From positions 1 to 64,000 of the forward strand of contig CAMYJF010000009.1 in NCBI GenBank assembly GCA_947258555.1: 64,000 nt of DNA, read 5' to 3'. How positions within the stretch are numbered: position 1 is the first letter of the stretch; every line of letters begins with the position of its first letter. Made by a program: the position numbers and the translations under genes. This DNA is from an uncultured Eudoraea sp. (GTDB lineage: Bacteria > Bacteroidota > Bacteroidia > Flavobacteriales > Flavobacteriaceae). The notes beneath the pieces are model-generated. The model was given only the letters and a program-made list of their open reading frames with translations. It was not told where the DNA came from and did no database searches. Positions 7,935 through 14,690 of this stretch are shown here, piece after piece.

Positions 7935-9870
<1,936 letters not shown>

Positions 9871-9910
9871 TATTATTTGGTTTTAAGTGTCAAAAATTTT
9901 CATTTTCCTT

Positions 9911-9943
9911 TTGGCAGAAATTATGCCAAGTCAGTTATCTGAC
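9911..9943 (-). promoter_or_regulatory. Candidate sigma-54 promoter and adjacent palindrome upstream of groESL
   Basis: On the minus strand TGGCATAATTTCTGCC (9928-9913) matches the sigma-54 -24/-12 pattern TGGCAC-N5-TTGC with the invariant GG-N10-GC spacing. It would start transcription about 30 nt upstream of groES. The site is itself an inverted repeat (TTGGCA/TGCCAA). Directly upstream is a second palindrome, GTCAGATAACTGAC (9943-9930), a possible activator site. No TAnnTTTG element lies in this gap. The assignment is inference from pattern and spacing. Confidence 0.6.
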
Positions 9944-9956
9944 AGCTTGTTAAAAT

Positions 9957-9996
9957 AAAAATGCCAGCTTGTCACTTTCTTGCCGGCATTTTTTCA
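9957..9996 (-). terminator. Terminator after secG
   Basis: On the minus strand an AATGCCGGC/GCTGGCATT stem is followed by TTTTTATTTT. It separates the secG transcript from groESL and supports an independent groES promoter. Confidence 0.75.
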
Positions 9997-9999
9997 TTT

Positions 10000-10371
10000 C
10001 TATTGAATGGTATCTAAAGGATTTCCTTCCTGGGAAGCAGGGACTTCTTCCGGTGTAGTTTCAGGTACTGTTTCGGGAACTACCTCTTCAATGGCATCGC
10101 CTCCCGGAAGCAGTTTAGATTCTGTACTGGCAAAATTGCCTTTAAGTGCCACGTTCGATATTAAGATCAAGGCGATCAGTAATATGGCCAGTGTCCAAGT
10201 ACTATTGTCCAGGAAATCTCCTGTTTTCTTAACTCCGCCGACGATCTGACTTCCACCACCGCCAAACGAAGAAGACAATCCTCCTCCTTTAGGATTTTGA
10301 ACCATGATCACAAGCACTAATAACAGGCAAACTACAATTATGAGAATCAGGAATATAGAAAATGTGCTCAT
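10000..10371 (-). CDS. secG: Preprotein translocase subunit SecG
   Basis: Small SecYEG accessory subunit, 123 aa. The first membrane segment (about 3-24) is followed by the family loop QNPKGGGLSSSFGGGG. The second segment is near residues 57-76. The C-terminal tail is rich in Pro, Glu and Thr and is longer than in E. coli, as is common in Bacteroidota. It starts 2 nt downstream of the TPR gene and ends in a strong terminator. Confidence 0.94.
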   Translation of the reverse strand: MSTFSIFLILIIVVCLLLVLVIMVQNPKGGGLSSSFGGGGSQIVGGVKKTGDFLDNSTWTLAILLIALILISNVALKGNFASTESKLLPGGDAIEEVVPETVPETTPEEVPASQEGNPLDTIQ

Positions 10372-11321: not shown

Positions 11322-11834
11322 CTACCAATTAGCAAGAGATTTATTAAATATATCCTGGTGGATCCTTTCAAAAATTATTTGATGTGCCTCATCCCTGACC
11401 GATGCGAGTTGCGAATTGGCATCATAGTCATAGAAAAATGAAAATCGCTGCTCAAAATCTGAATCTTCTTTGGTGGCATTGTAAAATCGAACGTTTACCC
11501 CAATTGTTAACCTGTTTTGTGCAGCGCGCTGTTCCGAGGTAGCCGACATAGGTGTAACCCGGTATTCTACGATCTCTCCTTCATAGATCAGATCTCCCTG
11601 GGTTGTGACCAGATCAAGACTGGTCTGGTTAAGAATAACATCTTGTAGACTCAAGGTAAACTCCCTGTCCAGTCCCGGATCAAAGGTACTACCCGGATTT
11701 TGAGAAGCATAATTCTGGAAGTAATTTACCTGAAATGTAGTGGCGGCTCCAACATCACCCCCTGTGAAATTATAAGCGCCACATGCTGTTAGCAATGTTG
11801 ATATCAATACGGCTATGATTCCGGCCTTTCTCAT
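11322..11834 (-). CDS. lptE: LPS assembly lipoprotein LptE-like
   Basis: 170 aa with a lipobox (LLTAC, Cys18), then GAYNFTGGD, a typical start of Bacteroidota LptE. LptE plugs the LptD barrel for LPS insertion in the outer membrane. The body has the expected alternation of strands and a helix, including DLVTTQGDLIYEGEIVEYRVTP. The start overlaps the stop of the sigma-54 activator as ATGA (11831-11834), so the two are translationally coupled. LptE sequences diverge, so the call relies on size, lipobox and recognised motifs. Confidence 0.82.
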   Translation of the reverse strand: MRKAGIIAVLISTLLTACGAYNFTGGDVGAATTFQVNYFQNYASQNPGSTFDPGLDREFTLSLQDVILNQTSLDLVTTQGDLIYEGEIVEYRVTPMSATSEQRAAQNRLTIGVNVRFYNATKEDSDFEQRFSFFYDYDANSQLASVRDEAHQIIFERIHQDIFNKSLANW

Positions 11835-13096
11835 TTAAGATCGTATTGTTTAATTTTTCGATAGAGTGTTCGTTCAGAGATTCCCAATTCTGAAGCTGCA
11901 GCTTTTCGTTTTCCTCTATTTCGATCGAGTGATTTTTTGATCAATTCAATTTCTTTTTCCTGCAATGACAATGTCTCTTCTTCCTGTATCTCTTCCGCAA
12001 AATGATATCGGTCTTCCACTTGTACTGGCTGTGCCTGTGGCACGTCAGCTTCATGTATAGGTAGTGCTTCTATTGCCGGCGCCTCTTCTTCAAAAGAATC
12101 GCCATTATCCCCGTAGATCTTTTTGATCAGGGACTGATTGTCTTCCTGTACTTTAGTGGTATCGCTGGATTGCAAGAGCTCTAAAGTAAGCTTTTTCAGA
12201 TCGTTCAGATCTGCTTTCATATCAAATAATACCTTATATAGTATCTCTCTTTCATTGCTAAAATCACCCTCCTTTTGCCTGGGTTCTATGATCGCAGGCA
12301 GATTAGTGTCTACTGTGCGAGGGAGGTAATTGTTCAAGGTGGTTAATGAAATATTCCGTTCCTTTTCCAGCACTGAGATCTGTTCGGCCACATTTCTCAA
12401 TTGCCGAATATTCCCTGGCCATCTGTGCTTCAATAGTAGCTGCATGGCATCTTCCTGAAGTCGGATCGTAGGCATCTTGTATTTCTGTCCGAAATCCGAA
12501 GCGAATTTTCTAAATAAGAGATGAATATCCTCCTGCCGCTCTCTCAAGGGTGGGAGATGGATGTCTACTGTACTCAATCTGTAGTACAGATCTTCCCGAA
12601 ACTTACCTTTGTTAATAGCCTCGAGCATATTCATATTAGTTGCGGCCACAATGCGCACATTGGTCTTCTGAGTTTTGGAAGATCCTACTTTCAGGAATTC
12701 CCCGTTTTCAAGAACCCGGAGTAAACGTACCTGAGTATGCATGGGTAATTCGCCCACTTCATCAAGGAAGATGGTGCCGCCATCCGCAACTTCAAAGTAG
12801 CCACTACGCGTTTGGGTTGCCCCTGTAAATGACCCTTTTTCATGCCCGAATAATTCACTGTCGATAGTCCCTTCTGGAATAGCACCACAATTCACCGCAA
12901 TGTATTTGGCATGTTTTCGATGCGAGAGGGCATGTATGATCTTGGGCACAGATTCTTTACCTACTCCGCTTTCTCCGGTAACCAATACGGAAATATCCGT
13001 AGGGGAAACCTGTATGGCTTTCTCAAGGGCACGATTAAGTTTTGGGTCATTTCCAATGATCCCGAAACGTTGTTTTATGGCTTGTACGTTTTCCAT
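11831..13096 (-). CDS. Sigma-54-dependent transcriptional activator without receiver domain
   Basis: 421 aa bacterial enhancer-binding protein. It begins almost directly with the AAA+ domain: Walker A GESGVGKE at 41-48, the sigma-54 contact loop GSFTGA at 88-93 (a GAFTGA variant), Walker B GGTIFLDE at 106-113, and the arginine-finger region FREDLYYRLS. An acidic linker of about 90 residues follows, then a C-terminal Fis-type helix-turn-helix (AAASELGISERTLYRKIKQ). There is no receiver, GAF or PAS domain, so activity must be controlled in another way. It starts 2 nt after the miaB stop. The candidate sigma-54 promoter of groES lies in the same locus. Confidence 0.93.
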   Translation of the reverse strand: MENVQAIKQRFGIIGNDPKLNRALEKAIQVSPTDISVLVTGESGVGKESVPKIIHALSHRKHAKYIAVNCGAIPEGTIDSELFGHEKGSFTGATQTRSGYFEVADGGTIFLDEVGELPMHTQVRLLRVLENGEFLKVGSSKTQKTNVRIVAATNMNMLEAINKGKFREDLYYRLSTVDIHLPPLRERQEDIHLLFRKFASDFGQKYKMPTIRLQEDAMQLLLKHRWPGNIRQLRNVAEQISVLEKERNISLTTLNNYLPRTVDTNLPAIIEPRQKEGDFSNEREILYKVLFDMKADLNDLKKLTLELLQSSDTTKVQEDNQSLIKKIYGDNGDSFEEEAPAIEALPIHEADVPQAQPVQVEDRYHFAEEIQEEETLSLQEKEIELIKKSLDRNRGKRKAAASELGISERTLYRKIKQYDLK

Positions 13097-14572: not shown

Positions 14573-14604
14573 CAAAGATACATCGAAATTAATGAATCTG
14601 ACAA
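14573..14604 (-). promoter_or_regulatory. Candidate housekeeping promoter for the miaB operon
   Basis: On the minus strand TTG (14604-14602) is followed after 21 nt by TATCTTTG (14580-14573). This fits the Bacteroidota pattern TTG-N17-23-TAnnTTTG well. The start site would lie near 14566-14570, giving a leader of about 30 nt. It decides the miaB start codon. Confidence 0.65.
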
Positions 14605-14690
14605 TATGGCAGGCACATAAATTCATGTTAAACGCAACCTGAAACCCCCTTTTTCATCCTATGTGTACGAACGCCCCAAAAATTTTAAAA

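Follow-up and report, generated by a model that had tools for sequence, protein, structure and literature searches.

How the chaperone genes of Bacteroidota are controlled where sigma-32 or HrcA is missing has so far been explained only partly, and the groESL operon of an uncultured Eudoraea sp. raises this question in a concrete form. The DNA considered here, referred to as the window, is a stretch of 64,000 nucleotides (contig CAMYJF010000009.1, positions 1 to 64,000). On its minus strand, miaB (a label given from its sequence), a gene for a sigma-54 activator (bacterial enhancer-binding protein, bEBP), lptE, an unnamed gene, secG, groES and groEL follow one another. The genes on either side of the region of interest are:

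7935-9569, minus strand: groEL, 544 aa (Pfam Cpn60_TCP1, E 7e-81)
9592-9870, minus strand: groES, 92 aa, first gene of groESL (Pfam Cpn10, E 1.6e-34)
10000-10371, minus strand: secG, the gene upstream of groES (Pfam SecG, E 7.8e-19)

The gap between secG and groES comprises 129 nt and reads, 5' to 3' on the minus strand, as the secG terminator hairpin, then TAACAAGCTGTCAGATAACTGACTTGGCATAATTTCTGCCAAAAGG..., a predicted leader of 32 nt and the ATG at 9870. The first-pass annotation had stated that this gap lacks both CIRCE and the TAnnTTTG element, and both absences were borne out: the best match to CIRCE before the window's groES has 8 mismatches of 18, which is also the median for shuffled sequence; inspection by eye of the groES upstream gap found no TAnnTTTG with a properly spaced -33 box, and a consensus sigma-70 scan of the same region gave nothing above chance. 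What the gap does contain is the following:

9913-9929, minus strand: sigma-54-type -24/-12 promoter, TTGGCATAATTTCTGCC, kept in 81/81 groES leaders; the same promoter class has been start-mapped in F. psychrophilum (PMC9723704)

The minus strand from 9929 to 9911 is TTGGCATAATTTCTGCCAA, so that the GG (9927-9926), ten intervening bases and the GC (9915-9914) of a sigma-54 promoter lie exactly where they had first been placed. The predicted start is at 9902, which agrees with the leader of about 30 nt that had been claimed. Because the pattern TGGCAYNNNNNYKGC is common in the genome (45 occurrences, versus 16 for the reversed control), the -24/-12 site by itself would be weak evidence. It was examined in 80 further groES loci from Flavobacteriaceae and some other Bacteroidota, making 81 leaders with the window. 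The -24 block occupies the same position in all of them, with T in 80/81, G in 81/81, G in 81/81, C in 80/81 and A in 81/81, and the G of the -12 block is present in 81/81. Judged from this alignment, it is conservation that decides that the site exceeds chance. The expectation of a conserved GG-N10-GC thus held for both G's at -24 and for the G at -12, but not for the final C, since the last G is followed by C in 48 leaders, by A in 22 and by T in 11 (the Flavobacterium leaders have GA at -12). The strict GG-N10-GC is therefore not universal and too narrow a description.

A promoter of this type before groESL is known in kind. 5' end sequencing in F. psychrophilum placed groESL, lon, dnaK, grpE-dnaJ, htpG and clpB behind a sigma-54 motif, SM4, with mapped starts; groESL, lon, dnaK, grpE-dnaJ and htpG formed one co-expression cluster, and these authors left open which of three activators acts (PMC9723704). 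In a 2025 survey of sigma-54 regulons, chaperone genes were over-represented among the genes with a predicted sigma-54 promoter in Bacteroidota and Planctomycetota (PMC12316311); the survey shares with the present case the placing of chaperone genes under sigma-54, and differs from it in being promoter prediction only. The window's genome carries a single intact rpoN, with AID, CBD and DBD domains. Sigma-54 control of groESL, as originally proposed, is thus supported by the conservation of the leader, this single rpoN, the absence of HrcA and the start mapping in F. psychrophilum. A different possibility, namely that groESL is transcribed with the housekeeping sigma factor and that the -24/-12-like site is an operator or a product of chance, could appeal to the frequency of the pattern in the genome and to the presence of AATTTTTG in the groES leader. 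Given the deep conservation of -24/-12, the absence of a -33 element with proper spacing and the sigma-54-motif starts mapped for groESL in F. psychrophilum (PMC9723704), it appears extremely improbable.

The sigma-54 promoter had been described together with two palindromes, and the comparison of leaders altered the view of both. The inverted repeat TTGGCA-N7-TGCCAA over -24/-12, on which a single repressor-like protein had been imagined to bind, is complete in only 2/81 groES leaders, and the idea of such a repressor site is unsupported because the repeat is not conserved. The second palindrome does exist directly behind the promoter, and its left arm, TGTCAG, is conserved; its right arm was found in the window only among the 70 groES leaders with TGTCAG. 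As first described, and as far as these alignments tell, both palindromes are local coincidences. The conserved arm belongs instead to another palindrome, itself conserved, about 9 bases further out, whose spacing resembles that expected for the binding of an activator:

9930-9943, minus strand: palindrome of the first-pass annotation, GTCAGATAACTGAC, right arm not conserved (1/70 leaders)
9940-9952, minus strand: proximal activator-type site (site 1), TAACA-AGC-TGTCA, one mismatch to TGACA-N3-TGTCA

TGTCAG stands at a fixed position in groES leaders, and the complete element, TGACA-N3-TGTCA, became visible on comparing the dnaK, grpE and clpB promoters of related genomes (examples are TGACATCATGTCA for dnaK, TGACATTTTGACA for grpE and AGACATTTTGTCT for clpB). 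The same layout precedes dnaK, grpE, clpB, htpG and hsp20. In most promoters 12 nt separate the element from the T of TGGCA, and in the others the distance is often one or two helical turns greater; in the window, site 1 lies 11 nt upstream of that T, with its centre at about -44/-45. When the element was scored with a matrix from which the gene in question had been left out, a gap of 12 came first among 47 positions in groES, dnaK and grpE; in clpB it ranked second, behind a gap of 44. At gap 12, z lay between 3.4 and 4.5. The core TG[TA]C occurs 11-13 nt upstream of -24 in 129/172 promoters of four genes (300 shuffles: mean 3.4, maximum 11). It occurs at 11-13, 22-23 or 33-34 nt, windows chosen after the groES data had been seen, in 143/172 (shuffles: mean 7.5, maximum 17). 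Promoters of the same gene have a common ancestry, which means that the loci are not independent, yet several unrelated genes share the layout. In remoter members of the class, three loci (L312, L313, L315) have a groES gap of 12 or 13, five (L304, L310, L311, L314, L318) one of 22 or 23 and two (L306, L317) one of 20; this off-phase spacing of 20 is seen in four dnaK and two groES promoters. The steps of full turns suggest a contact on a single face of the helix. Members of families f5 and f15 often have no clear TGTCA in their groES leaders, though the bEBP is encoded elsewhere in those genomes.

Some variation was noted along the way. Several grpE leaders (e.g., L171, L160, L161) have a direct-repeat form, TGACA-TTT-TGACA, and the grpE -24/-12 site, TGGCAGTACTTTTGCCA, is nearly identical across much of the family. 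In loci L305-L307, L316 and L319 (f15) and L320 and L321 (f5), where the bEBP gene lies away from groES, the groES element is weak or missing; before dnaK in a member of f5 (L130) the element is kept at gap 12.

The specificity of the layout was assessed genome-wide. The strict pattern ACANNNTGWCW-N12-TGGYA has three matches in the window's genome, and these precede dnaK, clpB and grpE; the window's groES is missed by it, its gap being 11. A flexible pattern (GACANNNTGWC, a gap of 10-36, TGGYA and YTG) gave 59 matches in 31 genomes, versus 2 to 4 for the reversed pattern, and 55 of the 59 lie directly upstream of grpE, dnaK, clpB, htpG, hsp20 or groES. By position, 48 of these belong to grpE (24), dnaK (15) and clpB (9), while seven further ones, confirmed by Pfam, belong to htpG (4), hsp20 (2) and groES (1). 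As for the other four, two overlap long ORFs (G000:C4, G026:C19), one precedes an unidentified gene (G025:C37) and the last is in G003:C12. The gene lon was found once, by the strict pattern (L387). An earlier pattern, anchored on TGTCA with gaps of 6-30 nt, was discarded: besides groES it matched the window's genome at three places, none of them followed by a heat-shock gene. The match in G025:C37 (L269/L383) is the sole non-coding one before a gene not known as heat-shock; this gene encodes 101 aa (MNIPSKTQHLNNFEIEKLC...) with no Pfam match above cut-off, and is a possible new member of the regulon. Because the same element and spacing precede dnaK, grpE, clpB, htpG, hsp20 and lon, these genes and groESL would form one heat-shock or protein-quality regulon, lon having been seen once.

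Which protein, then, would read the element? About 2 kb from the groESL promoter lies a gene with the features of a sigma-54 activator:

11831-13096, minus strand: sigma-54 activator (bEBP), 421 aa (Pfam Sigma54_activat, PF00158, 3.8e-67; HTH_8, PF02954, 3.2e-11)
11843-11959, minus strand: HTH_8 DNA-binding domain of the bEBP, residues 380-418, including LGISERTLYRKIKQY (Pfam)

The protein consists of an AAA+ domain (13-180) with Walker A and B motifs and a loop of GAFTGA type (GSFTGA), a lid, a linker and a C-terminal Fis-type HTH, and it has no N-terminal sensor domain. The stretch LGIS[EQ]RTLYRK is common to all aligned rows, and the helix of the HTH resembles what is usual in activators of this class. 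In 74 of the 76 loci with enough flank, groES is preceded on its strand by the gene for an ortholog, at a distance of 1.6 to 3.9 kb (of 80 groES loci, L027, L038, L045 and L050 are cut off before this position); in L049 and L059 it is missing within 6 kb of groES. The bEBP is present in 29/29 sampled genomes of the class, with relatives at 54-76% identity; in G066 and in families f5 and f15 it has no linkage to groES. The window's genome, which is 95% complete, encodes two genuine bEBPs, the other PF00158 matches being weak and to AAA+ proteins such as ClpB. The second bEBP (L086:1078-2241, G000:C23) has a receiver and an AAA+ domain with GAFTSA instead of the GAFTGA loop, and no HTH match. 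The protein of 11831-13096 is thus alone among the bEBPs of this genome in having a DNA-binding domain and is, since the other has no HTH match, the DNA-binding activator by elimination. Elimination and linkage together point to it as the likely binder of the element.

Two additional observations concern the region further upstream. On the minus strand at 14573-14611, before miaB and the bEBP gene, TATCTTTG fits the TAnnTTTG box of housekeeping promoters; miaB itself probably begins further downstream than its called GTG start. A site at 14599-14611, with one mismatch to TGACA-N3-TGTCA, was considered as a self-regulating site before miaB and the bEBP gene and was not adopted, since it is followed by a TAnnTTTG box and not by a -24.

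It could be argued that the second bEBP, whose gene lies about 6 kb from grpE, activates these promoters from solution while the palindrome is read by something else, as bEBPs without a DNA-binding domain do exist (group 5, PMC7175178). However, this would leave the fixed 13-bp DNA element unexplained, and in G144, a genome of the class listed as 100% complete, the only bEBP-like match is the ortholog of the window's protein, so that such an arrangement seems very unlikely.

Another protein altogether might occupy the palindrome of a sigma-54-dependent promoter, be it a heat-sensitive repressor or a co-regulator, with the bEBP acting from unrecognised sites. A palindromic site upstream of -24 is what a bEBP enhancer (UAS) looks like, but such enhancers usually lie 100-150 bp upstream (PMC7057263), a distance that is typical rather than strictly defining, and a centre near -45 is unusual; moreover, with HrcA lost, another repressor is conceivable. 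Nevertheless, a constant spacing of 12 nt, from which many exceptions depart by one or two turns, is what would be expected of a face-dependent contact with the polymerase and not of occlusion; most lineages have kept the bEBP and the element together, and the bEBP gene was the only regulator gene found between miaB and groEL. This alternative is considered unlikely. No description of the TGACA-N3-TGTCA element or of the activator's identity was found in the main texts of the open-access literature searched, and the assignments of enhancer, phasing and activator are offered here as new inferences from sequence comparison.

The element before groES appears not to stand alone, as a second copy overlaps the end of the preceding transcription unit:

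9957-9993, minus strand: secG transcription terminator hairpin, 12 bp stem (RNA fold -15.6 kcal/mol, z -4.9)
9962-9974, minus strand: outer site (site 2), TGACA-AGC-TGGCA, made of the loop and 3' arm of the secG terminator

In the window, site 2 lies 22 bp from site 1, centre to centre, which corresponds to two turns. The terminator loop, with its TGACA or TGTCA, combines with one arm of the hairpin into TGnCA-N3-TGnCA, and such a site was found in 51/57 detected secG-groES terminators, versus 0/127 other terminators of the same loci. In Flavobacterium the second site is turned round, at a distance of about 31 bp, and a similar second site precedes clpB, at gap 44. On this pattern, the site embedded in the terminator may have a regulatory function. 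The hairpin at 9957-9993 also reads as a terminator both ways, and its loop TGACA is conserved, unlike usual terminator loops.

In 118 genomes of the phylum, HrcA was found in 0/29 genomes of the window's class versus 65/89 of the others. In 38 groES upstream regions, CIRCE (0-2 mismatches of 18) was present in 15/15 sampled genomes with HrcA and in 0/23 without it. HrcA/CIRCE, which also controls groESL and occurs in other lineages of the same phylum, thus differs from the present case in that both the repressor gene hrcA and its inverted repeat (TTAGCACTC-N9-GAGTGCTAA) are missing in the window and its class. Three outgroup loci without HrcA (L324, L332 and L335, from f21, f29 and f32, respectively) are also without CIRCE and have -24/-12-like sites before groES, and these three lineages encode full-length relatives of the bEBP at 45-49% identity. 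The switch away from HrcA/CIRCE may be older than the class, or may have taken place in more than one event.

All these observations can be integrated in a model that we regard as likely, in which a sigma-54 groESL promoter is opened by a sensorless bEBP at TGACA-N3-TGTCA, as part of a shared chaperone regulon. Briefly, RNA polymerase containing sigma-54 would transcribe groESL from the -24/-12 site at 9929-9913, and an AAA+ activator bound at site 1 (9940-9952), most likely the bEBP of 11831-13096, would drive promoter opening, assisted by the copy in the secG terminator (9962-9974). Dimers of the bEBP on both sites could assemble into a hexamer beside the closed complex, which would then be opened by ATP hydrolysis. 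Little or no DNA looping would be needed, because the centre of the site is near -45 and not 100-150 bp away. The palindrome would serve activation and not repression, and the regulon, which would stand in place of HrcA/CIRCE in this class, would probably respond to heat or unfolded protein via a trans-acting protein. Control in trans is expected because the bEBP is without a sensor domain; a conserved stretch before the HTH (around EE-LSL--KE) is a candidate contact, and feedback by free chaperone on the bEBP is a guess that draws on the analogy of other heat-shock regulators.

Several known systems resemble parts of this model. NtrC at glnAp2, which exerts nitrogen control through its receiver domain, binds two palindromic sites, centred near -108 and -140, which are spaced by about three turns and lie on the same face. 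The likeness lies in paired palindromic sites on one DNA face; unlike here, the NtrC sites are far upstream, and a receiver domain is absent from the window's bEBP. In Bradyrhizobium, groESL3 is a single specialised copy tied to nitrogen fixation and placed under NifA and sigma-54; it is likewise a groESL operon under sigma-54 with a bEBP, but one copy and not a whole chaperone regulon. PspF, too, is a bEBP that combines AAA+ and HTH but has no N-terminal sensor, and PspA controls it in trans (PMC7057263). However, the window's bEBP scores 279.5 bits with the PspF equivalog model, below the cut-off of 443.55 and over the AAA+ region only; PspF serves different genes, and its usual enhancers are far upstream. 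Finally, F. psychrophilum SM4 is the same type of promoter before groESL, dnaK, grpE-dnaJ, htpG, lon and clpB, although the TGACA-N3-TGTCA element and its spacing are not described in the accessible part of that report (PMC9723704).

In its widest form, which we favour only slightly, the model describes a class-wide chaperone regulon that has replaced HrcA/CIRCE and is governed by one sensorless sigma-54 activator, acting through a proximal, phased 13-bp palindrome and a second site embedded in a terminator, and perhaps itself restrained by chaperones. Now that an element, a rule for its spacing and a single candidate activator can be named, the question of chaperone control in these bacteria becomes directly testable. 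The groESL promoter would then be a case of a sigma-54 enhancer lying almost against its promoter, in contrast with the usual picture of a distant enhancer and DNA looping, and of a transcription terminator doubling as a regulatory site.
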